NCBI GenBank assembly: GCA_027484055.1
Contig: JAIXQH010000010.1
Location: 124,001 to 188,000, forward strand
Source of the DNA: Verrucomicrobiaceae bacterium
GTDB lineage: Bacteria; Verrucomicrobiota; Verrucomicrobiia; Verrucomicrobiales; Akkermansiaceae
Direction of reading: 5' to 3'
Length of the DNA stretch: 64,000 nucleotides
Both the position numbers and the translations under genes were made by a program. The notes under the pieces are model-generated. The model worked only from the letters and a program-made list of their open reading frames with translations, had not been told where the DNA came from and ran no database searches. Positions 33,679 through 50,365 of the stretch are shown piece after piece. The first letter of the stretch is position 1; every line of letters starts with the position of its first letter.

Positions 33679-36600
33679 ATGAGCAAGCGCATTTGGCATC
33701 ACCCAGAAGTCCCCGTCGGCGAAACCACCGTCGCATGGCGCAGTGTAGGACAACTCGAAGATACCGCCGAGTTCCGTCAATGGATGGACCGTGAATTTCC
33801 ACGAGGTGCGGCAGAACTCGCCAATGATGATGAAGTCGAGACCTCGCGTCGTTCATTCCTCAAGTTGATGGGAGCCTCCACCGCCCTTGCGGGTTTCGGC
33901 ATGGCCGCTTGTCGCCGTCCTGAAGGATACATCGTTCCCTACACCAAAGCTCCTGAATGGGTGATTCCTGGAAATGCCACCTACTACGCCTCCGCCATGC
34001 CGCGTGCCACAGGTGCCACCCCACTGGTAGTGACCACCTTCGAGGGCCGCCCCACGAAGCTCGCTCCTAACAAGTTACACCCAGATGCCGAAGGCACCGA
34101 CGCCTTCGCTCAAGCTTCGGTTCTCGATCTCTACTCGCCCTCACGCTCAAGAGTCATCCTCAAATCGGGGAAAAGTGCTCCACGCGCTGAGTTAGAAAAA
34201 GTCATCGCTGGTCTCGCCACCGACACGGCCGCTAAAATCGGTTTCCTCTTCGGTGCCGATGACAGCCCGACCCGCGTTCGCCTCATCAAGCAGCTGGCCG
34301 AGAAATATTCTGATGGTCGTTTTTACCAATACGAAGCGCTCGCAAGTGAGTCCTCGGCTCTGGCCGTGGGTGACGGGGTAAAACTCGTTGCTGATTTCTC
34401 TAAAGCGGACCGCATTGTCTCATTCGACTGCGACTTTGCTGGCACGGATTCACAAGGTCCTGTCACCCCATTTTTCGACCGTCGGAAGCCAGAAGGCAAA
34501 TCCTACACCGAGAAGCCAGACGCTTCCTCGATGAACCGTCTCTACTCCGTCGAAGCCGCTTACACCCTCACCGGTGGGATGGCAGACCATCGCCTCCGGA
34601 TTGCTTCAAGCCAGATCACAGCGGTCGCCGCTCAAGTGGCAAGAGGCCTCGGCGTGAATGCTGGCGTCGCCATCGTCACGCCGGAACTTACCGATGCAAA
34701 ACAGATCGCATGGGTCGAAGGCCTGGTCGCAGATCTTAAAGAGAACGCTGGTAAATCACTTATTCTCGCCGGTTCCCGCCAATCCGTGGCGCTTCACCTT
34801 TTGGCGTATGCCATTAACTCCAAGCTCGGCAACATCGGCGAAGGCAAGCCCCTGCTCGCCGTGCAATCCGGTACCAAGGGTCTTGGCAGCCTGACCAAAC
34901 TCAAGTCGGACATCGACTCCGGCAAAGTGACGACACTGGTGCTTCTGACCCCCGGAAATCCGATTTATGATGCCCCAGCTGACCTCAAGTTTGCCGAGTC
35001 TTTCGCCAAACTGCAGACCAGCATCCACTTGGGCACCCGCACGGATGCCACGGCTCACGCTTCCACATGGCACATACCAGCAGCCCACTATCTTGAGGCT
35101 TGGTCAGATGCCTCCACAGCTCGCGGCACACACACGGTGGTGCAGCCCATGATTCTGCCGCTCTACAAAGACTGCGTTTCAGAATTTGAACTTCTTCTCG
35201 CTCTGCTTTCCACGGATGGCAAACTGCTCAACGGGGAAGGGGAGAAAGGTGCCGCTTCACCCGCCTACGCCGCCGTCCGTGCCACGTTCTCCGCACTCGC
35301 TGGGGAAGAGGAAAGCGCCTGGAAAAAATTCCTCAGAGACGGATTCCTCGCCGGTTCAAAATATGCCACTGCAACTCCGGCCTCCCGCTCGGAAATGTCG
35401 GTGGAACAACCCGCGAGTGCGCCTACCAAAGACTCACTCGAAGTGATCTTCGCAACGGATTCCTCGATTTACGACGGGCGCTGGATCGACAATGGATGGC
35501 TCCAAGAAGCTCCAGATCCGATTTCAAAACTCACGTGGGACAACGTTGCTCTGATCGCTCCTAAGACCGCAAAAGACCTCGGCATCTACGAAGAAATTAT
35601 CGCTCTTGAGACACCAACGGCTTCGAAATCTCCCGACAGCGAAGGTGAAAATCGCAAATCACCCATGATCAAGGTCGAGGTGAATGGTCAATCCCTCGAA
35701 ATTCCCGTCTTGGTCTCATTTGGCCAAGCCGAAAATACTATCGTCATCCCACTCGGCTACGGCCAAGGCTTCGATCAACACGACGAATTAAAGCGTGGTC
35801 CTCACAACGCCACTCACGTCGGCCTTGTAGGAGTCAACCGTGGCTTCAATGCCTACCCGCTCCGCACCGCTTCCTCATCCTACATCGCCACCGGTGCAAA
35901 AGTGACCTCGACTGGGAACCGCTACTCTGTCGCAATCACCCAAGAGCACAACGGCATGTATGGTCGTGCGCTCGCTCGTGAGGTTTCCACTCTTAAGGAT
36001 GAGGAAAAAGGCTCATTTGACGCCCAGCTTGCCGGAGTCGCCAAGCAGGGCAATGATTCCCACGCCCCGCCGAATGTTTCCCTCTACAAACCGGAAGATC
36101 GCGCTGGGAAAACCCTAATCAACGACCCACTTCATCAGTGGGGAATGTCCATCGACCTATCCTCTTGCATGGGTTGCAACTCCTGCCTCGTGGCTTGCCA
36201 ATCGGAAAACAACATTCCGATTGTCGGAAAAGAGCAAGTCGCCCGCGGTCGCGAAATGCACTGGATCCGCATGGATCGCTACTTCGCCACTCAGAAAGAT
36301 AACACCTTCGACTCAGACAATCCCGCACTCGTCCCGCAGCCCGTCGCTTGCGTGCAATGCGAAGCCGCTCCCTGTGAAACGGTCTGCCCGGTGAACGCTA
36401 CCATCCACACCGAAGACGGCTTGAATGCCATGGCATACAACCGTTGCATCGGCACTCGCTACTGCGCGAACAACTGCCCCTACAAGGCACGTCGCTTCAA
36501 CTACTTCGACTACAACAAGCGCAACCCGCTCATTTCTCACAATCTCTACAAAGGACCATTCGGAGAAACTCAAGTGGGTGAGGCAGCTCACCTTCAGAAA

Positions 36601-37011
36601 AATCCTAACGTCACCGTCCGCATGCGCGGTGTGATGGAAAAATGCACCTACTGCGTCCAGCGTCTCAAAGACGCCGTCATCCGCCAAAAGCGTGGTCAAA
36701 AACAAGAAGCTCTCCTCGCCGGCAAGGAATCCATCGAGATGCAAGTGACCAGCCACACCCTGCGGATTCCCGTGGATTCGGTGAAGACCGCCTGCCAAGA
36801 CGCTTGTCCTGCCAGCGCAATCACTTTCGGCAATCTGCTCGACGAAGAAAAATCTGCCCTCGGTCGTAGCAAACGCATTGACCGAAACTACGATCTCCTT
36901 AACTACATCGGCACCCGACCACGGACCAGCTACCTGGCCCGCGTCAAGAATCCGAATCCGAAAATGCCTGATGCCCAGTTTATCGGCAAAGCGACCGTCC
37001 ACATGGTCTGA
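33679..37011 (+). CDS. actB: ActB, Fe-S and molybdopterin-oxidoreductase-like subunit of alternative complex III
   Basis: Large periplasmic electron-transfer subunit, 1110 residues. A twin-arginine signal (SRRSFLKLMG at 56-65) ends at a lipobox-like Ala-Cys78, so export through Tat is expected. The N-terminal part resembles molybdopterin oxidoreductases but lacks cofactor-binding motifs, as is known for ActB. The C-terminal 300 residues carry the ferredoxin-like clusters: CMGCNSCLVAC, CVQCEAAPCETVC, CIGTRYCANNCP (Thr in place of one Cys, consistent with a [3Fe-4S] cluster) and CTYC with ACQDACP. ActB1 and ActB2 are fused here. It passes electrons from the quinol site to the cytochromes. Confidence 0.92.
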   Translation: MSKRIWHHPEVPVGETTVAWRSVGQLEDTAEFRQWMDREFPRGAAELANDDEVETSRRSFLKLMGASTALAGFGMAACRRPEGYIVPYTKAPEWVIPGNATYYASAMPRATGATPLVVTTFEGRPTKLAPNKLHPDAEGTDAFAQASVLDLYSPSRSRVILKSGKSAPRAELEKVIAGLATDTAAKIGFLFGADDSPTRVRLIKQLAEKYSDGRFYQYEALASESSALAVGDGVKLVADFSKADRIVSFDCDFAGTDSQGPVTPFFDRRKPEGKSYTEKPDASSMNRLYSVEAAYTLTGGMADHRLRIASSQITAVAAQVARGLGVNAGVAIVTPELTDAKQIAWVEGLVADLKENAGKSLILAGSRQSVALHLLAYAINSKLGNIGEGKPLLAVQSGTKGLGSLTKLKSDIDSGKVTTLVLLTPGNPIYDAPADLKFAESFAKLQTSIHLGTRTDATAHASTWHIPAAHYLEAWSDASTARGTHTVVQPMILPLYKDCVSEFELLLALLSTDGKLLNGEGEKGAASPAYAAVRATFSALAGEEESAWKKFLRDGFLAGSKYATATPASRSEMSVEQPASAPTKDSLEVIFATDSSIYDGRWIDNGWLQEAPDPISKLTWDNVALIAPKTAKDLGIYEEIIALETPTASKSPDSEGENRKSPMIKVEVNGQSLEIPVLVSFGQAENTIVIPLGYGQGFDQHDELKRGPHNATHVGLVGVNRGFNAYPLRTASSSYIATGAKVTSTGNRYSVAITQEHNGMYGRALAREVSTLKDEEKGSFDAQLAGVAKQGNDSHAPPNVSLYKPEDRAGKTLINDPLHQWGMSIDLSSCMGCNSCLVACQSENNIPIVGKEQVARGREMHWIRMDRYFATQKDNTFDSDNPALVPQPVACVQCEAAPCETVCPVNATIHTEDGLNAMAYNRCIGTRYCANNCPYKARRFNYFDYNKRNPLISHNLYKGPFGETQVGEAAHLQKNPNVTVRMRGVMEKCTYCVQRLKDAVIRQKRGQKQEALLAGKESIEMQVTSHTLRIPVDSVKTACQDACPASAITFGNLLDEEKSALGRSKRIDRNYDLLNYIGTRPRTSYLARVKNPNPKMPDAQFIGKATVHMV

Positions 37012-37048: not shown

Positions 37049-38524
37049 ATGGCATCCACCACCCAGACCGCAGCTGAGTCCCACACTGGAGTAAAAATCC
37101 CGGTGCTTAAGCGGGAAAAACTCATCCTCAGCGGTCGCTCGTATCACTGGATCACAGACCGCATCTGCGGAGTTGTGGAAAACCGGCAGCCGTTTCTCTG
37201 GTGGTTGCTTTTTATCCCATCGGCATTGATCGCCCTGATCGGCGTCGGCGGGGGCTTGACCTATCTCGTTTCTACCGGTGTCGGTGTCTGGGGTATGTCC
37301 AACCGGGTGTTCTGGGGATTTGATATCACCAACTTCGTTTTCTGGATCGGTATCGGCCACGCTGGAACCCTGATCTCAGCGGTGCTCTTCCTAACCCGCC
37401 AAAATTGGCGGACCTCAATTAACCGCGCGGCAGAAGCGATGACGATCTTCGCGGTGGTTTGTGCAGGTATCTTCCCAGCCTTCCACGTCGGACGCGTCTG
37501 GTTTGCCTGGTTCCTCGCTCCTGTTCCGAATGCGAATGCGATCTGGCAAAACTTTAAATCACCTCTCCTGTGGGACGTTTTCGCGGTCTCCACTTACTTC
37601 ACCATCTCCTTGATCTTCTGGTATTTAGGCATGGTCCCTGACCTTGCAACGATCCGGGATCGCTGCAAACCCGGTGTCCGTAAAATCCTCTACGGTATTT
37701 TCTCCCTCGGCTGGCGTGGCGGTAATCGTCAGTGGAGCCACTACGAAATGGCGTATCTCTTACTGGCCGCTCTCTCCACCCCGCTTGTGCTTTCTGTGCA
37801 CTCCGTCGTCTCCTTTGACTTCGCCACATCCGTCGTTCCCGGCTGGCATACCACCATTTTCCCACCCTACTTCGTCGCAGGCGCGATTTTCGGCGGCTTT
37901 GCGATGGTGCTCACCATCATGGTTCCTGCGAGATTCATCTATGGTCTTCAGGATTTGATCACCATGAAGCACATCGACAACATGGCGAAGATCATCCTCC
38001 TAACTGGAACGATCGTGGGCTACGCCTACCTCATGGAGCTCTTCGTCGCATTCTACTCCGGCTCGATCTATGAAATGGATGCCTTCAAATTCCGGATCGC
38101 CGGTCCTTATTGGTGGGCCTACGCCGCAATGATGTCGCTGAATGTGCTTTCCCCACAAATCTTTTGGTTCAAAGCATGCCGCGAAAATCTCTGGGTCATC
38201 ATGTGCGTCGCCATGTGCGTGAACGTAGGCATGTGGTTTGAACGATTTGTCATCATCGTCACCACACTCGCCCGGATGTGGCTACCAGGTGATTGGAAAT
38301 CCTACTCACCAAGTGGTGTGGAACTCATGACATTTGTCGGGACAATCGGTCTCTTCCTCGCCTTGTTCTTGATGTTCCTCCGCTTCCTTCCCTGCATCAA
38401 CATTGCCGAGGTTAAGTGGACACTTCTTGAGTCAGATCCACACTTTGACGATATTGAGGATCATCCAGATCATGGAACTAACATAGAAGCCGCTTACCAA
38501 AAAGAATTGGTATCCGCTAAGTAA
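37049..38524 (+). CDS. actC: ActC, NrfD-like quinol-binding membrane subunit
   Basis: Integral membrane subunit of alternative complex III with about ten transmembrane helices in 491 residues, of the NrfD/PsrC family that binds quinol near the periplasmic side. Visible conserved segments include [54 protein letters not shown] and [19 protein letters not shown]. The C-terminus is soluble and acidic. It follows actB by 37 bases and is paralogous to ActF, as in all known alternative complex III loci. Confidence 0.92.
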
Positions 38525-38557: not shown

Positions 38558-39112
38558 GTGAGCACCACCCGCAAACGCGTTTATGGCTATCTAGCCGAAT
38601 TTAAGAGTGCATCAGCTCTCTACAAAGGCGCGGAGAAAATCCGCGACGCTGGTTTCAAAAAATGGGACTGCTACTCGCCATATCCCATCCACGGTCTTGA
38701 TGGGGCAATGGGCATGAAGCGTTCGATTCTTCCATGGTTTGTTTTCTTCGGTGGGATGACTGGGACCGCAACTGCATTTGCCCTCGCCTACTCGACGCAA
38801 GTGGTGATTTACCCAACCATCGTCCAGGCAAAGCCCGCGAACATTTTCACGATCCCAGCGTTCTTCCCGATCATGTTCGAACTCACGATTTTATTCTCCG
38901 GATTTACCGTGCTGTTTGGACTGCTGGCTTTAATCCAACTCCCGCGCTTAAACCATCCCTTGTTTGCGAGTAAACAATTTAGCCGTGCGACAGATGACGG
39001 CTTCTTCATCGCCATCGAGGCGCGCGACAGTAAATTCAGCCCCACCGAAACCCGCGAGCTACTCGCATCCATCGGTGGGTCCAGTATCGAACTCGTCGAA
39101 GAAGAAGACTGA
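38558..39112 (+). CDS. actD: ActD, DUF3341 membrane subunit
   Basis: Small membrane subunit of alternative complex III (184 residues, DUF3341). Two transmembrane helices (about 58-80 and 95-120) follow a soluble region with GYLAEFKSASALYKGAEKIR and the family motif YPIHGLDGAMG. The start is GTG at 38558, the only start that preserves the conserved N-terminus. The C-terminal DDGFFIAIEARDSKF lies on one side of the membrane. It follows actC by 33 bases. Confidence 0.9.
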   Translation: MSTTRKRVYGYLAEFKSASALYKGAEKIRDAGFKKWDCYSPYPIHGLDGAMGMKRSILPWFVFFGGMTGTATAFALAYSTQVVIYPTIVQAKPANIFTIPAFFPIMFELTILFSGFTVLFGLLALIQLPRLNHPLFASKQFSRATDDGFFIAIEARDSKFSPTETRELLASIGGSSIELVEEED

Positions 39113-39153: not shown

Positions 39154-39804
39154 ATGCGCTACTTTTTCCTAACCTACGCACTCATTGCGTTGCTCGTCGT
39201 CGGGATCTTCGGACTCCGCGGGCAGAAGTTTGACAAACCACCGGTCCGGATATTCCCAGACATGGATGAACAAGATAAGCTACGTGCCCAAAAACCCGAT
39301 GCCTTTTTTGCCGACGGTCATGGCGCACGCTTACCCGTGACACAAACTCAACCTCGTGGTTTCAACGCAGCAGGGGAGAAGTCCATCGGTGGCATCTCAG
39401 AGTATGAGTTCGGCGGTCAAACCGGTTATTACTATACGGGTCATGTCGGAGATTACTTCGGCACGGGTATGCCAGAGGAACTCAAGCTCACTCAAGAAAC
39501 TGCCGAGGCGCTGATTCACCGCGGTAAGGAACGTTACGGAATTTATTGCGCGGTTTGCCACGGAAAAGCAGGCGACGGCCAAGGCATCACCAGTAACTAC
39601 GGAGTCCCCGGCATTGCAAATTTCCACCTAGAAAACTTCAAATCGGCTGCTTACCCAGACGGGAGAATGTTTGAAACCATTACAAATGGTAAGGGGATGA
39701 TGGGTGCCTATGGCTACAGCATTCCTGTTGAAGATCGGTGGGCTATCATTTCCTACGTTCGGACGCTACAAGCCGCCAAAGATGCTCAAGCCAAGGCTAA
39801 CTAA
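39154..39804 (+). CDS. actE: ActE, monoheme cytochrome c subunit
   Basis: Membrane-anchored cytochrome c of alternative complex III, 216 residues. A hydrophobic N-terminal helix (about 3-21) is followed by a soluble domain with one heme site CAVCH (132-136) and a candidate Met ligand in the TNGKGMMGAYG loop. ActE is thought to hand electrons to the terminal oxidase or a soluble carrier. No lipobox cysteine is present, unlike some ActE proteins. It is spaced 41 bases from actD and 20 from actF. Confidence 0.88.
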   Translation: MRYFFLTYALIALLVVGIFGLRGQKFDKPPVRIFPDMDEQDKLRAQKPDAFFADGHGARLPVTQTQPRGFNAAGEKSIGGISEYEFGGQTGYYYTGHVGDYFGTGMPEELKLTQETAEALIHRGKERYGIYCAVCHGKAGDGQGITSNYGVPGIANFHLENFKSAAYPDGRMFETITNGKGMMGAYGYSIPVEDRWAIISYVRTLQAAKDAQAKAN

Positions 39805-39824: not shown

Positions 39825-41135
39825 ATGGCCCATCACCACGTCACCTCTGCCGATATCGCCATCAATGGCGATCATCTAGATCCCTCAAAATCTTCCAAAA
39901 TTAAAAAGGCTTCCATGATCGTTGCCACCCTTGGGACGATTCTGAGTTTATATTTACTTTTTGCTGCCGACGAGAAAATCCGAGGCTCCTTCGCCTACTC
40001 TTGGCTGTTCGCATTTTACTTTTTCATCACTCTATCGATAGGCGGAGTGTTTTGGACTTTGCTGCATAATGTATCCAATTCGAGCTGGGGAACCTCAGTA
40101 CGGCGGACTTTCGAAAACCTTGGTTCCACTTTTCCATGGATGTTCCTCTTTTGTTTGCCGCTACTTTTTCCACAAGTCCATGGCTACCTCTATGAGTGGA
40201 TGAATATTCATGATGCTGCGACGGGTTCTGTGAAGGAGCACCTCCATCATGTGGATCATCTTCTCTATAATAAGTATTGGTTCATGAATGAACCTTTCTG
40301 GTACGGACGCGTTGCTTTTTATTTTGTGGGTCTTAGCACCGTCATCTATGGACTGCGTAAACTTTCAACAGCCCAAGACACCGATCCTAACCCTGGAATC
40401 AAGCGTCTTCTGACGGCTCGTTACCATTCGACCTACCCGCTGATCATCTTCGCACTAACCATCACGTTCACAGGTTTCGACTTCTTAATGGGGCTTGATT
40501 ACAAATGGTTCTCGACCATGTGGGGTGTCTATTTGTTTGCAGGCACCGCACTCAATTCGATGGCTGTCATCGTTCTGGTTTGCACCTGGCTCAAGAGCAA
40601 AGGCCATCTCAAGCACGTCACAACCCCTGAACACTTCCATATCATGGGTAAGCTGATGTTCGCTTTTACGACCTTCTGGGCCTACATCGCTTTCTCTCAG
40701 TATTTCCTGATCTGGTATGCGAACATTTCTGAAGAAACGTCCTACTTTGCCACTCGCAACACGGGCAATTGGAACATCGCCATGTATTTCCTCGTCTTTG
40801 GTCACTTCGTCGTCCCGTTTGTCGTCCTACTCCAAGCGTGGTTGAAGAAGAATCCCAAACTGCTGTCCGTAGTTGCGGTTTACACGCTCTGCATGCACGC
40901 ACTGGATCACTACCTCATCACCATCCCTGAGCGCGGAATTTCACTTGGAAATATAAAGCCGGATGTATTCGGTGCGATCCAAGTTTCCATTCCTGGTGCT
41001 TTCTGGGGTGACATACTCGCATTCATCACCATTGGTGCTGCGTTTATCTTCTTCCTCCTCCGTGCTCTTGGCCAGCACTCCCTCTATCCGAATCGCGATC
41101 CTCGCATTCTTGAGTCGGCTAATATCTCAAACTGA
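39825..41135 (+). CDS. actF: ActF, second NrfD-like membrane subunit
   Basis: A 436-residue polytopic membrane protein, paralogous to ActC. It has about ten transmembrane helices; conserved segments include ITFTGFDFLMGLDYKWFSTM, WAYIAFSQYFLIWYANISEE and LFGHFVVPF-like VFGHFVVPFVVLL. The N-terminus is His-rich (MAHHHVTSAD). In known complexes ActF supports the quinol module without its own quinol site. It ends 11 bases before the next cytochrome gene. Confidence 0.9.
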   Translation: MAHHHVTSADIAINGDHLDPSKSSKIKKASMIVATLGTILSLYLLFAADEKIRGSFAYSWLFAFYFFITLSIGGVFWTLLHNVSNSSWGTSVRRTFENLGSTFPWMFLFCLPLLFPQVHGYLYEWMNIHDAATGSVKEHLHHVDHLLYNKYWFMNEPFWYGRVAFYFVGLSTVIYGLRKLSTAQDTDPNPGIKRLLTARYHSTYPLIIFALTITFTGFDFLMGLDYKWFSTMWGVYLFAGTALNSMAVIVLVCTWLKSKGHLKHVTTPEHFHIMGKLMFAFTTFWAYIAFSQYFLIWYANISEETSYFATRNTGNWNIAMYFLVFGHFVVPFVVLLQAWLKKNPKLLSVVAVYTLCMHALDHYLITIPERGISLGNIKPDVFGAIQVSIPGAFWGDILAFITIGAAFIFFLLRALGQHSLYPNRDPRILESANISN

Positions 41136-41146
41136 TTTTTCATTTC

Positions 41147-41905
41147 ATGGACCCATCAAAAGACAATCCACTGTTACGCTTCGCCACTTTTTGGTGGGGT
41201 CTTGGCACATTTCTCGTTTTTGCTTTATTACTCGCGGTGATAATGTTTTTCAACTCATCGGGCCCGATCTCACTAGAGGATGCTCCCGCCAAAGTGAGAT
41301 ACGAAACTAAGGCAAAAACCGATGCCGCCCAATCGTCGGCTGTCAGTATAGAAGCGATCCAATCAGTCACGGATGTAGTTGCAAAGACGCTCGTTGCCTC
41401 AAAGCCAATCGCGGTGGAGAGCCCCTCTCAGATCGTGCCAGGTTCTGCGACTTCCAAGAAGTTAGCCTCAGCTCCAGCAGTTGACACCAAGGCAATGGAC
41501 TCGGCTTCTTCCGCATCAGATGCCCCAATCGATCCAGCCGTTCTCGCTGTCGGTAAGGCTCAATTTGTTGTCTGTGGTGCTTGCCACGGTCAAAATGGTG
41601 AAGGCGGAGCAATAGCTCCACCACTCGCAGGTTCGGAATGGGTGAAGGGGCCTATCTCCAATCTGATCAAGATCCAATTACGTGGGCTCAATGGCCCTAT
41701 CTCTGTGGCTGGTAAGGAGTATAACTTTCCAGGCGGTATGGCTGCTCTAAGTTATCAAACCGACGAGCAAATTGCATCTGTCTTAACATACGTAAGGAAT
41801 AGTTTCGGAAACAAAGGCTCTGCCGTGAAACCTGAACAAGTCGCGGCTCTTCGTGGTGAAGTGGGTAAGCCGCAGGTCACTGCGGGTGAACTAATCAAAC
41901 CCTAA
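41147..41905 (+). CDS. Membrane-anchored monoheme cytochrome c, first of a pair
   Basis: A 252-residue protein with an N-terminal transmembrane anchor (about 15-36), a long Ala/Ser/Lys-rich periplasmic linker (about 45-130) and a C-terminal class I cytochrome c domain. The heme site is CGACH (143-147), with GGMAALSY supplying the likely distal Met, and the ending YVRNSFGNKG. It is a paralogue of the cytochrome at 44202, which shares the YVRNxFGN ending, and the two flank the CcoN/CcoO-like genes. It probably carries electrons between alternative complex III and an oxidase; annotation as a CcoP equivalent would be only positional. Confidence 0.85.
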   Translation: MDPSKDNPLLRFATFWWGLGTFLVFALLLAVIMFFNSSGPISLEDAPAKVRYETKAKTDAAQSSAVSIEAIQSVTDVVAKTLVASKPIAVESPSQIVPGSATSKKLASAPAVDTKAMDSASSASDAPIDPAVLAVGKAQFVVCGACHGQNGEGGAIAPPLAGSEWVKGPISNLIKIQLRGLNGPISVAGKEYNFPGGMAALSYQTDEQIASVLTYVRNSFGNKGSAVKPEQVAALRGEVGKPQVTAGELIKP

Positions 41906-41928: not shown

Positions 41929-43434
41929 ATGTCTTCTGCTAATTCAACTACCAGTGAACAGGACGCAATACTGCGCTCCGGGATTGATCGCTCATTGCGC
42001 CATCCAGTGATGTTCTTCCTCACCAGCGGTGCTGCATGGCTCGCCGTATCCATCGTTTTGGGAATCGTAGCTTCTTGGAAGGTTCACAGCCCAGAACTGC
42101 TCTCCGGCTGTGCTTGGCTGACTTACGGAAGAGTGTTTCCTGCACACATCAATGCTCTAATCTATGGCTGGGGTTTCCAAGCTGCTTTTGCGATTATCAT
42201 TTGGATGATGGCTAGGCTCTCAAGAAAAGAGTGCAAGGCGGTAGGAACCATTCTTGCCGCCGGCCATATCTGGAACTTGGGTGTTGCACTGGGCATTGTC
42301 GGGATTTTTGCCGGTTTCAGCACGGGTATCCCGTGGATGGAATTTCCAATATTTGCTTGGCCAGTGTTACTAGTGAGTTACATCAGCATTATCATCTGGT
42401 CATTCATCCAGTTCAGGGTTCGTCCTGAAGGCCATGTCTATATTTCTCAGTGGTATTTTTTAGCGGCGATGATCTGGTTCCCTTGGATTTATATCACTGC
42501 GAACACATTACTGTTATGCATCCCGGGACACCCATTAATGGGGGTTGCCATCAATACTTGGTATAAGTCAGCAATTCTTTTTCTATTCTTCACGCCAGTC
42601 GCGCTCGGTGCCGCTTATTACTTGGCTCCGAAAGTAACCGGAAGTTCAGTTTACAGTTACTCATTGGCCAAATTAGGATTTTGGTCACTTGCCATCATCG
42701 CTCCATGGGCCGGCATGCAGAAGTTGGTCGGCGTGCCAATACCTTACTTTCTGCCTTATGTCGGTGCGGCAGCAACGGTTCTACTATTTGTTCCGGCAAT
42801 AACGGCTTCCATCAATATTCTCAAAACCGCAACTTCTTCGCGCGATGTCTTAAAAGGAAGTCCATCTCTGCAGTTCATGACAGCGGGAATCGTTGGCTTG
42901 GTCATCATGGCTTGTGCTGCCGTCTTTTTAAATCTGCCAAATTCCACTCTTCCGCTGTCGCAATTTTCGATGTCGGGCTACGGCTTTCAAATCCTTGCAC
43001 TGTATGGATTTTTCAGCCTCGTGATGTTTGGCTCGATCTATTTCATCGTGCCAAGAGTAACTCGTCGGGAATGGTTATCTCGTCGATTGATCAAAATGCA
43101 CTTTTTCTTCTCCATCTACGGGATCATGACGGTTGCCCTCATCGCGATTTTTGGGGGTATTCAACAAGGCGCCGCGCAAGAAGCGTTCGAGCAACCTTGG
43201 CAGAATGCAGCGACCTCGGCCTTCCCATATGCGGTGGCGACTACGATCGCATGGTGTTTCATCCTATTCTCGAATGTCTTCTTCTTCCTTCAACTCACTC
43301 TGATGTGGCTTCGACTTGGACGTCGGAGTTCGCACCCGACGCTACTCACTTCATCGCATGACTCCTCATCAAGCCCTCACGGGGATGATGGTGACATCGA
43401 CAATGCTGGTCCCGCTTTTCAAGCCACGCACTAA
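41929..43434 (+). CDS. ccoN: CcoN-like heme-copper oxidase subunit I homologue lacking the active-site ligands
   Basis: A 501-residue, about twelve-helix membrane protein that aligns with CcoN of cbb3 oxidases over its length: TYGRVFPAHINALIYGWG keeps the low-spin heme His (H73), and YYLAPKVTGSSVYSYSLAKL and YFIVPRVTR match flanking motifs. But the CuB and heme-b3 ligands are gone: WYGHN is WYKSA (211-215), the AGPHHL site is AGMQKL (261-266), and the GHVHSG helix reads GFQILA (352-357). There is no histidine between residues 202 and 390. It therefore cannot form a binuclear centre and is not an oxygen reductase. Its C-terminus is His/Ser-rich. It sits in frame with ccoO-like and two cytochromes. 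Confidence 0.85.
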   Translation: MSSANSTTSEQDAILRSGIDRSLRHPVMFFLTSGAAWLAVSIVLGIVASWKVHSPELLSGCAWLTYGRVFPAHINALIYGWGFQAAFAIIIWMMARLSRKECKAVGTILAAGHIWNLGVALGIVGIFAGFSTGIPWMEFPIFAWPVLLVSYISIIIWSFIQFRVRPEGHVYISQWYFLAAMIWFPWIYITANTLLLCIPGHPLMGVAINTWYKSAILFLFFTPVALGAAYYLAPKVTGSSVYSYSLAKLGFWSLAIIAPWAGMQKLVGVPIPYFLPYVGAAATVLLFVPAITASINILKTATSSRDVLKGSPSLQFMTAGIVGLVIMACAAVFLNLPNSTLPLSQFSMSGYGFQILALYGFFSLVMFGSIYFIVPRVTRREWLSRRLIKMHFFFSIYGIMTVALIAIFGGIQQGAAQEAFEQPWQNAATSAFPYAVATTIAWCFILFSNVFFFLQLTLMWLRLGRRSSHPTLLTSSHDSSSSPHGDDGDIDNAGPAFQATH

Positions 43435-43462: not shown

Positions 43463-44164
43463 ATGAGCTTTCGTATATTCATTCTTGGACTCTCGGCAAC
43501 TTTCGGTGTTGCTTGGCTTACTGTTGTCGTTGTTCCCTATATAACGATGAAGAATCTCAAGCCGATTGAGCTCAATGAGGCAGTCGATGGCGCCAAAGGA
43601 ATTTTTTATCCTAAAAGAACTGGTAGAATCGCGAATGGTGCCCGTGTCTATGCTGAGAATGGCTGCTATCTGTGCCATACCCAAGTGATCCGGCCAACCT
43701 ATGCGGGCAACGATCTTTATCGCGATGACTGGGCAGGATTAAAAGCGGATCCGGATCGGGGTGATACTCGCCGTGAGACGAATGCTTACGACTTCTTTGG
43801 GGAAAAATTCGCACAAGTGGGTGTTTCCAGACTTGGTCCTGACCTATCGAATTTGGGGCGTCGGGTTGAATCGATTTATGCAGCGGGTAAGGACCCAGCC
43901 AACTGGTTGTTTTCACATCTCTACAATCCAAGAAATGAGCCGAAACGGTATCAGTCCACTTGCCCGTCGTTCAGATTTTTGTTCGTGGAGCGCACGATCA
44001 AGGGGAATCAATCGTCGGATGCCCTTCCGTTTAGCGTAGATCAAAATGTCGAGATCGTTCCCAATGCGGATGCGAAAGCTTTAGTCTCTTACCTTTTATC
44101 ACTTAAAAAGGATCAAGCCATCCCTGCCGTGTTGAACTTCGCCCCACCTAAAAACAAAGGTTAA
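43463..44164 (+). CDS. ccoO: CcoO-like membrane-anchored cytochrome c lacking the usual Met ligand
   Basis: A 233-residue cytochrome of the CcoO type: N-terminal transmembrane helix (about 7-28), then GCYLCHTQVIRPTY with heme site C68-C71-H72, and LGPDLSNLGRR. In CcoO the distal heme ligand is the Met of an S-x-MP motif near residue 165; here the same place reads STCPSFRF, with Cys167. No methionine occurs after the heme motif at all, so His/Cys or His/His ligation is implied if heme binds. It is paired with the ligand-less CcoN-like gene, 28 bases downstream of it. Confidence 0.82.
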   Translation: MSFRIFILGLSATFGVAWLTVVVVPYITMKNLKPIELNEAVDGAKGIFYPKRTGRIANGARVYAENGCYLCHTQVIRPTYAGNDLYRDDWAGLKADPDRGDTRRETNAYDFFGEKFAQVGVSRLGPDLSNLGRRVESIYAAGKDPANWLFSHLYNPRNEPKRYQSTCPSFRFLFVERTIKGNQSSDALPFSVDQNVEIVPNADAKALVSYLLSLKKDQAIPAVLNFAPPKNKG

Positions 44165-44201: not shown

Positions 44202-44966
44202 ATGCCAAATAAGAATCAACACTCTGACTTAGACGAGTCAATTAACGTGACTGAAGCCCATGGCCGAATCGTTCGTGAAGCGGCAGCATGTGCCCGTGAA
44301 AAGCGGATCGTCCAAAATGGGATCGAGCCCGTTTCTCTCTGGGCGCTTGGAGCTTGTGCGATTGTCTTTGTCATCGCCGGTGGTATCCTCGGTGGAGGTG
44401 GTAATCTTTTCGCTTATGGCACCAACTTTCGTGAAGGCTATGTGAGAACCCCCGCTCCTGGTGCCGCCGATTCGGGGCCCGTGCCTAAGGAGGCCCTTGT
44501 GGCTTATATGGCGAAAGGTGCTAAAATTTATTCGGCAAAATGCAATGGCTGCCATGGTTCCGATGCCAAGGGCAACGGTGCGACTTTCCCCTCTTTGGTC
44601 GGCTCTAAATGGGTTCTAGGTGAAACTGAGCGCTTTGCGATGATTGTTCTTAACGGTCTTCAGGGACCTGTATCCAATGGAACCACTTATGGTGTCATGC
44701 CTCCGCAAGGAATCGGCATGTCCCCTGAGGACCTAGCCGGTGTGATGACATATGTCAGAAACAACTTCGGCAATTCAAAGGGTGACGTTGTGACGATGGA
44801 AATGGCGAAAGCTGCTATCGACGTCTCAGGAGTGCGCAAAAAAGTTGGAACTTCAGTCACTGGACCTGAACTTGAAAGCGATCATCTTAAGAATCTCTCT
44901 GGCACACCGCTTGATCCTAAAACACTTGTCGATCCCATTACCTTGGAAGCGTCAAAACTACCTTAA
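44202..44966 (+). CDS. Membrane-anchored monoheme cytochrome c, second of a pair
   Basis: A 254-residue cytochrome with a soluble N-terminal region, one transmembrane helix (about 44-66) and a C-terminal class I domain. The heme site is CNGCH (114-118); candidate Met ligands lie in YGVMPPQGIGMSPED. It shares TYVRNNFGN with the cytochrome at 41147, which marks the two as paralogues that bracket the CcoN/CcoO-like genes. A gap of 154 bases separates it from coxA, the largest within the locus. Its place suggests electron transfer toward the aa3 oxidase. Confidence 0.83.
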   Translation: MPNKNQHSDLDESINVTEAHGRIVREAAACAREKRIVQNGIEPVSLWALGACAIVFVIAGGILGGGGNLFAYGTNFREGYVRTPAPGAADSGPVPKEALVAYMAKGAKIYSAKCNGCHGSDAKGNGATFPSLVGSKWVLGETERFAMIVLNGLQGPVSNGTTYGVMPPQGIGMSPEDLAGVMTYVRNNFGNSKGDVVTMEMAKAAIDVSGVRKKVGTSVTGPELESDHLKNLSGTPLDPKTLVDPITLEASKLP

Positions 44967-45120: not shown

Positions 45121-47037
45121 ATGAGTTCACACTCCACATCAATCACTGAGCATAATGATCATGATGACTCCCATCATGACGACCATCACCATGAACTAGG
45201 ATTTATCCAAAAATGGATTTTTTCGACAGATCATAAGATTATTGGTCTCCAATACGGTATTACGGCGCTTAGCTTCCTCGCTTTTGGATTCTACTTGATG
45301 ATGGTCATGCGCTGGAGCATTGCCTACCCACATCAACCATTGCCTGAATGGATGAGTTGGGTATTCACTGACGGCTGGAAAGCACGTTGGTTACAGGATG
45401 GCAAAGTGACAGGAGAGACGTATAACATGTTCGGCGCGATGCACGGGACCATCATGGTATTCCTTGGCATTGTTCCACTTGGTTTTGGCGCTTTTGGAAA
45501 CTACGTGACGCCTCTCCAAATTGGAGCGCCTGACATGGCGTTTCCGAGACTGAATATGGCGAGCTATTGGATTTACTTACTTGGCGGTTTGGTCATGTGC
45601 AGTTCCTTTTTCTTTGAAGCTGGTGCTGCAAAGTCCGGGTGGACCAATTACTCACCACTTGCTGGTTTCGCTGACGGTCAAGTGGTTAATCAATGGTTAG
45701 CAGGGCAAACCCAGTGGCTGGTCGGACTAGTGCTTCTGATCACTTCATCGCTTCTCGGTTCGGTGAATTTTATTACGACCATCATCAATTTGCGAGTGCG
45801 AGGCATGACATGGATGAGAATGCCATTCTTTGTATGGTCGATGCTTGTCACTGGCTTCCTGTTGCTTCTCGCTTTCCCACCACTTGAAGCTGCTGGAATC
45901 ATGCAATTGATGGACCGAGTAGCTCACTCATCATTCTTCATGCCTTCAGGTCTATTCACCAAGAGCGAAGGCCTCGCTGATTTGTCAGGCGGTGGATCTC
46001 CGCTACTTTTCCAACATCTATTTTGGTTCCTAGGCCACCCAGAAGTTTACGTCCTCTTACTCCCTGCATTCGCATGCGTGAGTGAAATCATTCCGGCTAA
46101 CACTCGCAAACCTCTTTGGGGCTACAAGTCGATGGTTTACTCGGTATTGGTTTTGGGATTCCTCTCATTCGTTGTTTGGGCGCACCACATGTACATGACT
46201 GGTATGGGCGCAGCGGTTTCCACGTTCTTCCAAACGACGACAGTCCTGATCTCGGTTCCTTCCGTGGTCATCATTACCTCCATGCTCATCTCACTTTGGG
46301 GTGGATCAATTCGCTTCACTCCGCCGATGATCTGGGCCTGTGCTTTCATTCCCATGTTCGGTATCGGTGGACTGACAGGTCTCCCGTTGGCATTTAATCT
46401 GGCTGACCTACATCTACATGACACATATTACGTCATCGGTCATTTCCACTACGTGGTAGCACCAGGTATCCTCTTTGGATTCTTCGCGGGTATCCTTCAC
46501 TGGTATCCAAAGATCACTGGGCGGTTCATGAGTAAAACACTCAACCATCTTCATTTCTGGCCAACTTTGATCTGCATGAATTTGATTTTCTTTCCGATGC
46601 TCGTGCAAGGCATGGCAGGTTTCCACAGACGCTGGTATAATGGGGGAGATGCTTATCTATCCAAAGCCGCAGATAGCGTAAACGTCTTTGGTAACACGGT
46701 GGCTCAACACATAGACCTGAACATATTGATGTCATCGGGTGCATGGCTCATGGCTTTTTTCCAAATTTTCTTTATCATCAATCTATTTACTTCATGGAAA
46801 TTTGGTAAAAAAGTCACCAGCGACAATCCTTGGGATGCGACCACCTTAGAATGGGCGACGCCCACACCTCCAGGACACGGGAATTTCACGAAAGAGCCAA
46901 TCACATATCGCGGGCCTTACGAATACAGCAGACCAGACTGTGATGCTGATTTTCTCCCGCAATGGACTGAGCCTAAACGGAGCCACACACTCGACACCGC
47001 TGTCGTAAGCCAAGAAGCTGCAAGTTCTAAAGCATAA
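45121..47037 (+). CDS. coxA: Cytochrome c oxidase subunit I (aa3 type)
   Basis: Catalytic subunit of the A-family heme-copper oxidase that reduces O2 and pumps protons. The 638-residue protein keeps every ligand: heme a His108 (MFGAMHGT), CuB His306 with cross-linked Tyr310 in GHPEVY, His355-His356, and the heme a3/heme a pair H441 and H443 in VIGHFHYV. This contrasts with the neighbouring CcoN-like protein. The N-terminus is unusually His/Asp-rich (about residues 11-24) and may bind metal. The gene order coxA-coxC-coxD-...-coxB is unusual in having subunit II last. Confidence 0.96.
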   Translation: MSSHSTSITEHNDHDDSHHDDHHHELGFIQKWIFSTDHKIIGLQYGITALSFLAFGFYLMMVMRWSIAYPHQPLPEWMSWVFTDGWKARWLQDGKVTGETYNMFGAMHGTIMVFLGIVPLGFGAFGNYVTPLQIGAPDMAFPRLNMASYWIYLLGGLVMCSSFFFEAGAAKSGWTNYSPLAGFADGQVVNQWLAGQTQWLVGLVLLITSSLLGSVNFITTIINLRVRGMTWMRMPFFVWSMLVTGFLLLLAFPPLEAAGIMQLMDRVAHSSFFMPSGLFTKSEGLADLSGGGSPLLFQHLFWFLGHPEVYVLLLPAFACVSEIIPANTRKPLWGYKSMVYSVLVLGFLSFVVWAHHMYMTGMGAAVSTFFQTTTVLISVPSVVIITSMLISLWGGSIRFTPPMIWACAFIPMFGIGGLTGLPLAFNLADLHLHDTYYVIGHFHYVVAPGILFGFFAGILHWYPKITGRFMSKTLNHLHFWPTLICMNLIFFPMLVQGMAGFHRRWYNGGDAYLSKAADSVNVFGNTVAQHIDLNILMSSGAWLMAFFQIFFIINLFTSWKFGKKVTSDNPWDATTLEWATPTPPGHGNFTKEPITYRGPYEYSRPDCDADFLPQWTEPKRSHTLDTAVVSQEAASSKA

Positions 47038-47080: not shown

Positions 47081-48694
47081 ATGGAAATTCCCTACGTTGT
47101 CACCCCTAGAAAAGACACTGGTCTTTTCAACTCAAAGATCGCCATCTGGTTGTTTCTTGCCTCCGAAGTCATGCTTTTTGGTGGCTTCTTTTCAGCCTAT
47201 GTCTTCTTGAGGCTTGGTGCGGATTTCCCATGGCCAGAACGCACACTGCCCGTATTACCAGGCTTGATTAATACCTTCGTGCTAATCGGTTCCTCAGTGA
47301 CGGTTGTCTTTGCATGGGCTTCTTTGAAATTACGCGATTGGAGAAAGTTCCAGATTTTTATGGGCATCACCGTGGCATGTGCTGCGATTTTCATGGTTTT
47401 GAAAGGGGTTGAATACAATGTAAAGCTACATCACCAAGCGGTTCGTCTTAAAGACTACACGGTTATTGAAGGTCACTTAGGCAAGGAGACTGAAAACGGT
47501 AAGCCTGTTCTCAATCACCATGGTAAAGAGATCGAAGAAAACCTGATCTTAGTAAATGCTAAGAAGTTTACCTTTAACACCGTTCGTTTTTACAAGCCGT
47601 GGATTGAGGAATTATTGACTCAAGCGAATCACCACAATGCAAAGATTACGCTTTCAAGTGATGTGGTTGCAGTCGTGAGGGAAGGCCAACCAGCAGAGTT
47701 AGTAGCCAAGGCTGGGGTACCGCTTAGCATCGAGCTATTGACGAAACTTCAAAAGACTCACTTAGCGGCGAGAAGTCATAATGGCGAATACCGCACTCAA
47801 GCTCTGCGGCAGGAATGGGTAAATGCGCACACTGCAAACCCGGACAAGCAGGATTGGCAAATCGCTGCTGACGTTAACATTGATATGAAAGCGCTCGCAC
47901 CAAAGTTACTCGATGAGATCTCTTCGGTTTCCTTCGACGTCGTGCCTCCTTCAAAATTTGATTTCCAACCTCGTGACATTAAAGAAGCCGACGGACAATC
48001 TCGTTTACGCGATGATACAGTGGTCGATGGTGAACTCCTTGATAGCCCGATGGTTTTTCATGCAGTTGATGCGATTGATTTCCAGCATCTCGCTATGAAA
48101 GCGGTCGAGAAGGGTATGGATCCCATTGTCGCAATCGATAACTCATGGTTGGTTAAAAATAATGTTTTCGCCAAGGAGGCATGGGAATGGAATAAGGTGC
48201 AAGTCGCCAAAATCGAAAAACGCTTGCTGGATGACTATGGCACGGATGCCAAAACTGGAAAACCGAACCGCGAACCTACTCTGAAAGAGAGATATCGAAT
48301 CGGCTGGAAGGACTTTGTCGCAAAGTCCGATGGCGTAGATCGTGATAAGGAGACGATTAAACTTAAGGAAGAATTTTTCGGGCCTGACTATCACGGCCGG
48401 GAAGAGAAAGCAACTTTTGAAGGTTTCGCTGTTCCTCGCGAGCAGGTCGGGTTTGCTGCTAAATTCACTCCAGCTTGGAATACCTACTACGCCCTCTATT
48501 TTACAATTACCGGACTCCACGGCTTACACGTTGTAGGTGGTGCTTTGGTTCTCGCTTATTATTTATTCTTTGGTCGTCAGATGTATCTGACCAATCCAGA
48601 ATGGTTGGCAAATCGGGTCGAAGTGGGTGGTCTCTTCTGGCACTTTGTTGACCTTGTTTGGATCTTTGTTTTCCCGATTCTTTATTTGATGTGA
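47081..48694 (+). CDS. coxC: Cytochrome c oxidase subunit III with a large insertion
   Basis: Subunit III of the aa3 oxidase, 537 residues against about 200-260 usually. The membrane parts are clear: SKIAIWLFLASEVMLFGGFF (18-37), LINTFVLIGSSVTVV, FMVLKGVEY (104-112), TGLHGLHVVGG (about 477-487) and WHFVDLVWIFVFPILYL at the end. Between helices V and VI lies a polar insertion of about 340 residues (about 116-458), partly helical and charged, without cysteines or a known domain. From subunit III topology the V-VI loop is on the periplasmic face, so the insertion should lie outside the cell membrane, near the cytochrome c side. Confidence 0.9.
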   Translation: MEIPYVVTPRKDTGLFNSKIAIWLFLASEVMLFGGFFSAYVFLRLGADFPWPERTLPVLPGLINTFVLIGSSVTVVFAWASLKLRDWRKFQIFMGITVACAAIFMVLKGVEYNVKLHHQAVRLKDYTVIEGHLGKETENGKPVLNHHGKEIEENLILVNAKKFTFNTVRFYKPWIEELLTQANHHNAKITLSSDVVAVVREGQPAELVAKAGVPLSIELLTKLQKTHLAARSHNGEYRTQALRQEWVNAHTANPDKQDWQIAADVNIDMKALAPKLLDEISSVSFDVVPPSKFDFQPRDIKEADGQSRLRDDTVVDGELLDSPMVFHAVDAIDFQHLAMKAVEKGMDPIVAIDNSWLVKNNVFAKEAWEWNKVQVAKIEKRLLDDYGTDAKTGKPNREPTLKERYRIGWKDFVAKSDGVDRDKETIKLKEEFFGPDYHGREEKATFEGFAVPREQVGFAAKFTPAWNTYYALYFTITGLHGLHVVGGALVLAYYLFFGRQMYLTNPEWLANRVEVGGLFWHFVDLVWIFVFPILYLM

Positions 48695-48726: not shown

Positions 48727-49068
48727 ATGGCTGATACTCCTGAAGCAATCCGTAAATCCGTTCGCACCTATATGTTCGTGGGTGCCGTATTATTCGTTGG
48801 AACCATCGTGACGGTTCTTGTCGCTACGGTCCCCGCCTTTGATGTGGGTGAACACGGGTTCGATAAATGGGACTGTATCCTAGGTCTTACGATCGCCACA
48901 ATCAAAGCTTCTCTAGTTGCGTTTATCTTCATGCACCTTAACCATGAAAAGAAGGCCGTTTACTGGCTATTCGGTTCTGGACTTTGCATGGTCTGTAGTC
49001 TCGCAGGCCTCACGGCCTTAGCAATGTATAGTCCTATCTTCGATAAATACTTCTTCTCAGGACATTAA
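48727..49068 (+). CDS. coxD: Cytochrome c oxidase subunit IV (prokaryotic type)
   Basis: A 113-residue protein with three transmembrane helices (about 17-36, 52-72, 80-101), the size and topology of the prokaryotic oxidase subunit IV (COX4_pro/CyoD-like) family. The conserved middle helix reads ATIKASLVAFIFMHLNHEKK, a signature of the family. It lies 32 bases after coxC in the cox cluster and is probably an accessory subunit for assembly of the Cu centre. Confidence 0.85.
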   Translation: MADTPEAIRKSVRTYMFVGAVLFVGTIVTVLVATVPAFDVGEHGFDKWDCILGLTIATIKASLVAFIFMHLNHEKKAVYWLFGSGLCMVCSLAGLTALAMYSPIFDKYFFSGH

Positions 49069-49320: not shown

Positions 49321-49551
49321 ATGAACTTTTCTACAACTCTTCTAGCCTGCTCAACCTGTCGTGCGACCATGATTGATGGAGGCGGCGATGCTGCGGGTTG
49401 GTCTATTTTCTTTTTACTCGCTGTGGTAGTGGCAATGCTGGCGGGCATTAGTTATTTCATGATTCGTATCATGCGTCGTGAGAGACTCAATTTTGATCCG
49501 AGTTTGTCTGACGATTATATCCAGAAGCCAGAAGCATCCCATTCAATTTAA
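49321..49551 (+). CDS. Tiny membrane protein with N-terminal CxxC
   Basis: A 76-residue protein with an N-terminal CSTCRATM segment preceding one transmembrane helix (about 25-48) and a soluble tail. The CSTC could bind metal or form a disulfide on the periplasmic side. No family recognised. It lies between the other small gene and coxB in the cox cluster. A role in Cu or heme insertion is conceivable but not shown. Confidence 0.55.
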   Translation: MNFSTTLLACSTCRATMIDGGGDAAGWSIFFLLAVVVAMLAGISYFMIRIMRRERLNFDPSLSDDYIQKPEASHSI

Positions 49552-49570
49552 TCATTTCACAACATTCAAC

Positions 49571-50365
49571 ATGAGTCCGTCTAAGTTCTTAGGTATTCCA
49601 GCAAATTTCTCCTCGCATGGTGGTCAAGTTGACCACATGATTGATGTGGTGCATTGGTTCATGATCGCCCTCTTTGTGGGATGGACCGTATTTTTCTTTT
49701 ATTGTATCATTCGGTTTTGGCATAAGAACAACCCGAAAGCTTCATATGACGGGGTCAGAAGTCATCTTTCGAGTCACTTGGAAATAGGAGTTATCATCGT
49801 AGAGGCCGTGTTGCTTTTAGGATTTGCATTTCCGCTGTGGGCGGCTCGGGTGGACAACTGGAAAGAGGTGCAAAACTTAAATCCAAATCGTGTGCGAGTG
49901 GTCGGTTGGCAGTTTGGCTGGACGTATCATTACCCCGGAAGCGATAATAAATTCGGTCGGACAAACCCAGATTTGATATCTGGCACGAATGATCTAGGTA
50001 TCGATTATACGGATCCAAATGCTTTAGACGATTTCACAAGTCCTATTCTTAAGCTACCAGTCGATCAGGCAGCTGTGCTTAATATCGGGACAAAGGATGT
50101 GATTCATAATTATTGTATCGTCCCGATGCGCATCCAGCAGGATGCAATCCCCGGCCGACAAATACCGATGTGGTTCACTCCGATCAAGACGCTAGAGACG
50201 CATGTGGTGTGTGCACAGCTGTGCGGAGAGGGCCACGCCAACATGGTTGGTTCCATGGAGGTTGTTCCAAAAGATCAGTATGACACTTGGTTCAAATCCC
50301 AGACCGAGTCTGCACTTAAGACCAATAGTCCCAAGCCTCCTGCTGTAGCAATGATCAATCCCTGA
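49571..50365 (+). CDS. coxB: Cytochrome c oxidase subunit II
   Basis: CuA-bearing subunit of the aa3 oxidase, 264 residues. Two N-terminal transmembrane helices (about 27-47 and 72-90) are followed by the cupredoxin domain. The CuA ligands are all present: H179 (VIHN), C214 and C218 (CAQLC), H222 and M225, with Gln216 where Glu is usual. No heme c domain is fused, so the enzyme is aa3 rather than caa3. The frame is open upstream to 49478, but the ATG at 49571 gives the correct N-terminus and avoids overlap with the previous gene. Subunit II being last in the cluster is unusual. Confidence 0.93.
   Translation: MSPSKFLGIPANFSSHGGQVDHMIDVVHWFMIALFVGWTVFFFYCIIRFWHKNNPKASYDGVRSHLSSHLEIGVIIVEAVLLLGFAFPLWAARVDNWKEVQNLNPNRVRVVGWQFGWTYHYPGSDNKFGRTNPDLISGTNDLGIDYTDPNALDDFTSPILKLPVDQAAVLNIGTKDVIHNYCIVPMRIQQDAIPGRQIPMWFTPIKTLETHVVCAQLCGEGHANMVGSMEVVPKDQYDTWFKSQTESALKTNSPKPPAVAMINP

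Follow-up and report, generated by a model that had tools for sequence, protein, structure and literature searches.

What does a homolog of the catalytic subunit of cbb3 oxidase do in a respiratory operon once the ligands of its oxygen-reducing center are gone? The question is raised by the window analyzed here, a stretch of 64,000 nucleotides from a Verrucomicrobiaceae bacterium (GenBank assembly GCA_027484055.1, contig JAIXQH010000010.1, positions 124,001 to 188,000 of the forward strand). In it, one co-directional run encodes ActA to ActF of alternative complex III (ACIII), a cytochrome c, CcoN-like, CcoO-like and CcoP-like proteins, and then coxA, coxC, coxD and coxB. The genes are given below in window positions; ActA, ActB, ActD, ActE and ActF are names that we assigned from gene order and presume to be correct.

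32934..33632, + strand: ActA, pentaheme cytochrome c of ACIII (Pfam cytochrome c7/c3, five CxxCH motifs)
33679..37011, + strand: ActB (gene order)
37049..38524, + strand: ActC, NrfD family (PF03916, 1.2e-20)
38558..39112, + strand: ActD (gene order; no NCBIfam match)
39154..39804, + strand: ActE, monoheme cytochrome c (name from gene order)
39825..41135, + strand: ActF (gene order; no Pfam or NCBIfam match)
41147..41905, + strand: extra monoheme cytochrome c between ActF and the CcoN-like gene (Pfam)
41929..43434, + strand: CcoN-like subunit of 501 aa with the heme-copper oxidase subunit I fold, without binuclear-center ligands
43463..44164, + strand: CcoO-like monoheme cytochrome c, heme motif kept (FixO, 4.8e-10; best CcoO chain in the PDB, 6.9e-7)
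44202..44966, + strand: CcoP-like monoheme cytochrome c (Cytochrome_CBB3 in Pfam, 6.3e-11; NCBIfam)
45121..47037, + strand: CoxA, aa3-type (A-family) subunit I (COX1, 432 bits; TIGR02891, 554 bits against a cut-off of 671)
47081..48694, + strand: CoxC, subunit III, 537 aa, with two COX3 stretches separated by a long insertion (Pfam)
48727..49068, + strand: CoxD-like, subunit IV (named by position)
49478..50365, + strand: CoxB, subunit II (PF00116, 2.6e-10; TIGR02866, 117 bits against a cut-off of 148)

The CoxA translation has the motifs GHPEVY, HHMY and HFHYV. The CcoN-like frame opens with ATG and stays open throughout, starting 23 bp past the cytochrome c gene and ending 28 bp ahead of the CcoO-like gene. 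The initial annotation had described its product as a homolog of cbb3 subunit I over its whole length, and three kinds of comparison bear this out. Pfam COX1 matches residues 27-440 with 137 bits, the sequence matches CcoN chains in the PDB (9g6b_A, 6.8e-24; 3mk7_A, 1.9e-22), to which its identity is 20-22%, and Foldseek with an AlphaFold2 model built from 59 sequences (mean pLDDT 84.2, pTM 0.87) ranks CcoN chains best (3mk7_A, TM 0.83/0.89; CcoN structures 0.82-0.83 by query), with NO reductase and ba3 oxidase after them. The protein has the fold of the heme-copper oxidase superfamily over its full length, by sequence and by model, and is predicted to form a bundle of about 12 helices. It is not a ccoN equivalog by the NCBIfam profile TIGR00780, scoring 110.6 bits against a cut-off of 583, some 473 bits short. 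CcoO-like and CcoP-like genes adjoin it as in a cbb3 gene cluster, and the CcoN-like gene follows actA-F across the lineage, loci at contig ends being partial.

Seven positions define the ligand set: low-spin His, CuB His, Tyr, CuB His, CuB His, b3 His and low-spin His. We take the assignment of each of these histidines to its cofactor, the CuB ligands excepted, as an assumption. The CuB assignment comes from the available part of PMC3578206. As the reference we used the window genome's own cbb3 protein (L109, an 833-aa frame on another contig). The residues concerned are encoded as follows.

42145..42147, + strand: codon of His73, helix II, low-spin heme ligand and sole survivor of the six heme and copper histidines
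42559..42573, + strand: WYKSA, residues 211-215, in place of WYGHN; CuB His replaced by Ser214
42709..42726, + strand: AGMQKL, residues 261-266, in place of AGPHHL; CuB His pair replaced by Gln264-Lys265
42982..42999, + strand: GFQILA, residues 352-357, in place of GHVHAG; b3 His replaced by Phe353 and low-spin His by Ile355

The three replaced motifs stand where the initial annotation had placed them, and the active-site Tyr, slightly upstream of AGMQKL, is Ala258. H73 lies in PAHINA, which begins at residue 71. The histidines of the protein are at 25, 53, 73, 113, 169, 201, 391, 469, 477, 484 and 501, so the annotated absence of His between residues 202 and 390 is confirmed. Overall the seven positions read H-S-A-Q-K-F-I in the window protein; they read HHYHHHH in 25/25 C-type or related proteins that are not ACIII-linked. 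The CuB histidines (S214, Q264, K265), the proximal His of heme b3 (F353) and the catalytic Tyr (A258) of a functional cbb3 oxidase are all absent, and at the same positions so are the His ligands of heme b3 and FeB that would mark a NorB-like nitric oxide reductase. Helix X normally supplies two His, one for heme b3 and one for low-spin heme b; with F353 and I355 there, the low-spin heme is also short of one of its two axial ligands. The annotated retention of His73 for the low-spin heme therefore holds for that residue but not for the bis-histidine site, whose second position is I355. Compared with CcoN of cbb3 oxidase, the window protein shares the full-length fold, the gene order N-O-cytochrome c, the CcoO-like partner, the helix II His and the conserved His of HF(W), here H391; it differs in having neither CuB His nor b3 His, no catalytic Tyr and no second low-spin His. 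Judged from these residues, the protein is not expected to carry out heme-copper O2 reduction, which supports the annotation on this point.

Two trivial explanations were ruled out. Helix X and the HH motif are not misaligned, since gap-free alignment to relatives bearing the histidines extends over all three motif stretches. Error in sequencing or assembly is excluded because the full set is missing in 80/80 named loci, from separate records, these being the best 80 of 523 confirmed relatives in a scan of contigs from named genomes that overlaps in part with the survey described below. The loci come from Akkermansiaceae, Luteolibacter, Roseibacillus, Persicirhabdus, Haloferula, Verrucomicrobiaceae or Verrucomicrobia, and some labels of metagenome-assembled genomes among them (Akkermansia muciniphila, Prosthecobacter debontii) may be loose. 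It had been proposed to look for orthologs beside actA-F and to ask whether they share the loss, and they do: among these best 80 of 523, none has a complete set, 3/80 have one CuB His left, one row contains an X, b3 His and the second low-spin His occur in 0/80 (the latter position being I, V, M or S in 80/80), and H73 is kept in 80/80.

A wider survey covered 387 Verrucomicrobiota genomes, of which 122 had a match to the window protein at 1e-10, some only to other C-type proteins. It yielded an ACIII-linked set of 93 proteins, the window's and those of 92 loci; L122, on a 5-kb contig without visible act genes, was counted because it falls inside the clade. The full ligand set (six His and Tyr) is present in 28/93, at about 34-41% identity to the window protein, and incomplete in 65/93, hereafter intact and inactive. 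Among the 65, Tyr and the second CuB His are never kept, the b3 His is kept once and the second low-spin His three times, while the first CuB His survives in 10, the third in 18 and the first low-spin His in 25; at the H73 position, His is thus gone in 40/65. H73 itself is present in 16/16 rows of the window's family and 6/6 of its sister family, some of these genomes recurring among the named loci. The inactive side includes the cultured strains Roseibacillus persicicus, Luteolibacter marinus and Persicirhabdus sediminis. A search with the DNA pattern for WAGMQK matched 28/384 genomes, some at other places, and did not widen the survey. In the window's family, genus g2 (genomes of 2.2-3.5 Mb), which may be Akkermansia, gave no match at 1e-10 in the 20 genomes listed, unlike the other listed genera.

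The ancestral form was the catalytic subunit of a C-type heme-copper oxidase encoded with ACIII. This follows from the persistence of full ligands in 28/93 ACIII-linked proteins and from the trees: on the protein's own tree (118 rows, ligand columns omitted), the ACIII-linked proteins are one clade apart from other C-type proteins (100, starred). How many separate losses followed depends on which tree is trusted. The protein's own tree has three changes of ligand state, all forced by starred branches, and groups 62/65 inactive rows together (support 86). A tree of ActB plus ActC, for the 84 loci in which both genes were found (26 intact, 58 inactive), has eight changes, seven of them forced by starred branches, and a careful tree of 40 rows, hand-picked to represent groups, has nine, six of them forced (bootstrap 5-95% range, 9-10). 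With regain of the site disallowed, no rooting tried on the 84-row tree gives fewer than 10 losses. Long-branch attraction may have drawn inactive rows together on the protein's own tree, and monophyly of the mixed family f5, the grouping given by the operon, is not rejected by the CcoN-like sequences themselves in an AU test (p = 0.356; 74/93 rows after thinning, f5 having been picked after the operon tree was inspected). We therefore set aside a history of few ancient losses only, the pattern of the protein's own tree, given the eight and nine changes on the ActB plus ActC trees and this non-rejection. The sequences suggest that ligand loss occurred repeatedly, apparently several times; transfer of inactive copies between lineages may explain some of the cases. 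One inactive protein, L054, is nested among intact relatives on both trees (support 100/100, end branch 0.081 on the 40-row tree). Two others, L039 and L142, have intact rows as neighbors on the protein's own tree (98, starred) and are placed with inactive L062 and L068 and intact L119 on the operon trees; they retain both low-spin His, with CuB, heme b3 and Tyr gone, an intermediate state.

What, then, is the function of a subunit so altered? We favor, as the reading with the better part of the probability, a model in which the CcoN-like protein has little or no redox activity of its own and serves as a scaffold keeping the CcoO-like and CcoP-like cytochromes on ACIII. The lineage that began with an oxidase has shed CuB, heme b3, Tyr and one or more low-spin ligands and retains its fold, its place in the operon and its c-type partners. 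The helix bundle would hold the two monoheme cytochromes beside ACIII, and menaquinol electrons would leave ACIII through them to the cell's oxidase, in the window's family probably the aa3 enzyme encoded next. Only the gene order points to docking on ACIII. A scaffold that holds cytochromes is supported chiefly by the contrast between the heme-c side, which has been kept, and the heme-b and copper side, which was lost: across 64 inactive loci, CxxCH is present in 59/59 CcoO-like proteins and 63/63 downstream cytochromes detected, and across the named loci (best 80 of 523) in 75/75 and 75/75. The CcoO-like gene went undetected by BLAST, or lies beyond the stretch, in 5/64 inactive and 5/80 named loci, and the downstream cytochrome in 1/64 and 5/80 (again the best 80 of 523).

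Several observations count against the scaffold. A pure scaffold would not need H73, yet the residue never varies in the window's and sister families; the CcoO-like gene is undetected in some loci; the protein's own tree allows as few as three losses; and adjacency to aa3 does not follow the loss on the tree. In the available text of PMC8552683, deletion of ActE in Flavobacterium johnsoniae leaves electron transfer to aa3 unimpaired, which indicates that extra cytochromes are in principle not needed. A structural role in the ACIII locus, one of the suggestions in the initial annotation, is nonetheless the best remaining explanation.

Among the rivals, the simplest is that the gene is a decaying pseudogene or leftover in a respiratory operon. 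The often long inactive branches on the protein's own tree would fit it, as would the existence of intact orthologs and a dN/dS that reaches 0.24 in inactive pairs as against 0.07 in intact ACIII-linked pairs. Yet the compared rows are open frames of at least 437 aa, and the single TGA inside four matches (G354, G257, G119, G158) still leaves frames of 493-523 aa. For inactive pairs 82-99.5% identical, dN/dS is 0.02-0.24 where dS is finite, and for intact pairs 0.01-0.07 (the comparison spanned 178 pairs, among them pairs of other C-type proteins, and dS was saturated in several). The alignment of 59 sequences has 65 invariant columns, M263, Q264 and K265 are at least 90% conserved, and the gene is found in 16 genomes from six genera of the window's family. 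The inactive copies are maintained under purifying selection, and we rejected decay on dN/dS and conservation, leaving it hardly any probability. With its open 501-aa frame, its ACIII operon and this selection, the gene is, as annotated, intact, in frame and inside a respiratory locus. The initial annotation had held that intact orthologs beside a decaying copy would speak against it; 28 intact ones do exist, but the inactive copies are not decaying. In the window's family, the emptied metal site appears to be filled by a conserved putative pair of Lys265 and Asp/Glu354 that may lock the helix bundle without cofactors. In the named relatives (best 80 of 523), residue 264 is Q in 75/80 and residue 265 K in 74/80, and residue 354 is D or E in 78/80, the window copy having Q; residue 354 is A in 24 and S in 4 of the 28 intact relatives, and V in 13, A in 10 and S in 2 of 25 other C-type proteins. 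A basic 265 with an acid 354 occurs in 24/65 inactive proteins from more than one lineage, including the separate inactive rows of the eight-row L056 group and L077 (R265/D354) and L076 (K265/D354). These residues could instead serve a new catalytic or ion-conducting use, the putative Lys-Asp/Glu pair together with Tyr and Lys forming a proton path coupled to ACIII turnover. Y231 and K235, each in 78/80 named loci (best 80 of 523), and the recurrence of the pair in separate rows would suit such a path. The pair is present in only those 24 rows, the window copy has Q354, and we know of no energetic driver; we regard the proton path as improbable.

A heme could also remain. One heme b might still sit on His73, its second ligand unusual or missing, and pass electrons between ACIII and the cytochromes. 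The constancy of H73 in the named loci and the two families speaks for this, as do the nearby residue 68, R in 67/80 and K in 12/80 named loci (best 80 of 523), and the two low-spin His kept by L039 and L142 after loss of the binuclear center. Against it stands the I, V, M or S at the second ligand position in 80/80 of those best 80 of 523, and since His is lost at the first position in 40/65 inactive proteins, a heme cannot be the general function. The annotated idea of electron transfer through heme b accordingly fails as a general account; a lone heme on H73 is possible within the window's and sister families, and as an explanation we rank it as a minority view, some way above the proton path. 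Finally, the protein might be an assembly or regulatory factor for the adjacent aa3 oxidase. Among the loci fetched, coxA-C-D-B does follow the CcoN-like gene in the majority from the window's family and in those from the sister family and methanotroph group. But coxA was not found in 38/64 inactive loci within the stretch fetched (about 9 kb per side of the CcoN-like gene, some shortened by contig ends); it was found in 26/64, as against 2/27 intact loci. Over seven independent intact/inactive pairs separated by starred branches, the aa3 neighbor showed no association with ligand loss: on average its presence differed concordantly in 0.0 pairs, discordantly in 0.9 and not at all in 6.1, a comparison of low power with too few pairs to reach significance. 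The same low-power pairs leave unsupported the idea that an adjacent aa3 oxidase drove the loss, and with the coxA count they leave the annotated link specifically to aa3 unsupported as a general one. An aa3 factor seems to us very unlikely.

In the favored model, electrons would go on to another enzyme. In a COX1 search of hand-chosen genomes, a further COX1 protein was found in 20/20 with an inactive copy and in 9/10 with an intact copy. The tenth, G001 (a 1.7-Mb genome, 99% complete), matches COX1 only through its intact ACIII-linked protein, so the intact form is plausibly a real oxidase. The fully liganded ACIII-linked C-type oxidase of Verrucomicrobiota shares its family and operon with the window protein; it differs in that the 28 relatives keep the seven residues, which the window protein does not, and may be true oxidases. 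Related operons with and without a presumably working built-in oxidase are a natural experiment through which the module's role apart from O2 can be addressed.

We know of no CcoN-, CcoO- or CcoP-like module between ACIII and aa3 in the F. johnsoniae supercomplex. Like the window, that system pairs ACIII with an aa3 oxidase, and ACIII works with aa3 there as its sole electron source, according to the available part of PMC8552683; the contact between the two runs through oxidase subunit III in the accessible text of PMC8361435. The fused cbb3 protein of Nitrospina gracilis is likewise a C-type oxidase with unusual active-site residues, but in the part of PMC3578206 at hand a Trp is replaced and the neighbors of the CuB His are odd, and CuB His is not described as lost.

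These findings bear on the verrucomicrobial methanotrophs. PmoA is encoded in 5/5 genomes of group f4, which in this phylum points to such organisms. The ACIII-adjacent CcoN-like proteins of f4 (L080-L084) read ADAAHQT or SESSHFV at the seven positions. Each f4 genome has a single match to the window protein at 1e-10, and a ccoN profile search of the five found 0/5 above the cut-off, with a best score of 33.7 bits. One of these proteins, L084 (G072), has diverged too far to be picked up by Pfam COX1 at E <= 0.001, and proteins of this kind are therefore easily missed or misnamed in surveys. From sequence, the "cbb3 oxidase" beside methanotroph ACIII appears to be a ligand-less CcoN-like protein, and we predict that it does not reduce O2. 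In the portions of these papers available, PMC6688271 treats the gene next to ACIII as a cbb3 oxidase that fits the high O2 affinity of SolV and low-O2 growth of Kam1, PMC8498564 and PMC10205796 count cbb3 among three terminal oxidases of verrucomicrobial methanotrophs, PMC11102522 reports cbb3 and aa3 genes next to ACIII in strain IT6, and PMC8170126 credits the Pantelleria genome only with aa3 and ba3; the same portions of the five contain no mention of missing ligands. An ACIII-linked C-type oxidase in verrucomicrobial methanotrophs and Opitutaceae is noted in the available text of PMC8498564, citing Refojo et al. 2010; that text counts the methanotroph copy as an oxidase, whereas the copies in the five f4 genomes are without ligands. 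If the site is gone, inferences of high affinity in methanotrophs will have to be corrected, and O2 affinity must be explained by the aa3 and ba3 enzymes. Ligand-less CcoN-like proteins should not be tallied as O2-using enzymes.

In the literature searched, from which Refojo et al. 2010/2012 fell outside, we found no description of a ligand-less ACIII-linked CcoN. Chances are about even, in our estimate, that a further reading holds: an oxidase has turned repeatedly into a non-catalytic subunit within one operon family (six to seven changes forced and eight to nine by parsimony on the operon trees), giving a previously undescribed assembly in which a cofactor-poor "ghost cbb3" bearing c hemes stands with ACIII and a separate oxidase, with some sites rebuilt as a buried ion pair and the methanotroph "cbb3" included.

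Some further features of these loci are worth recording. More distant Verrucomicrobiota (L085-L093) encode a different, stand-alone CcoN-like protein of about 455 aa with all ligands, together with a CcoO-like gene; a seven-heme cytochrome of 584-600 aa adjoins it in 5/9. The extra cytochrome between ActF and CcoN has CxxCH in 9/13 window-family loci in which the gene was detected (L034-L037, L052, L113, L143, L149 and L150 were named with it) and in 0/5 detected in the sister family, where the frames are 126-278 aa. CoxC is 533-611 aa long in the window's family relatives, 441-489 aa in the sister family and 263-290 aa in the methanotroph group.
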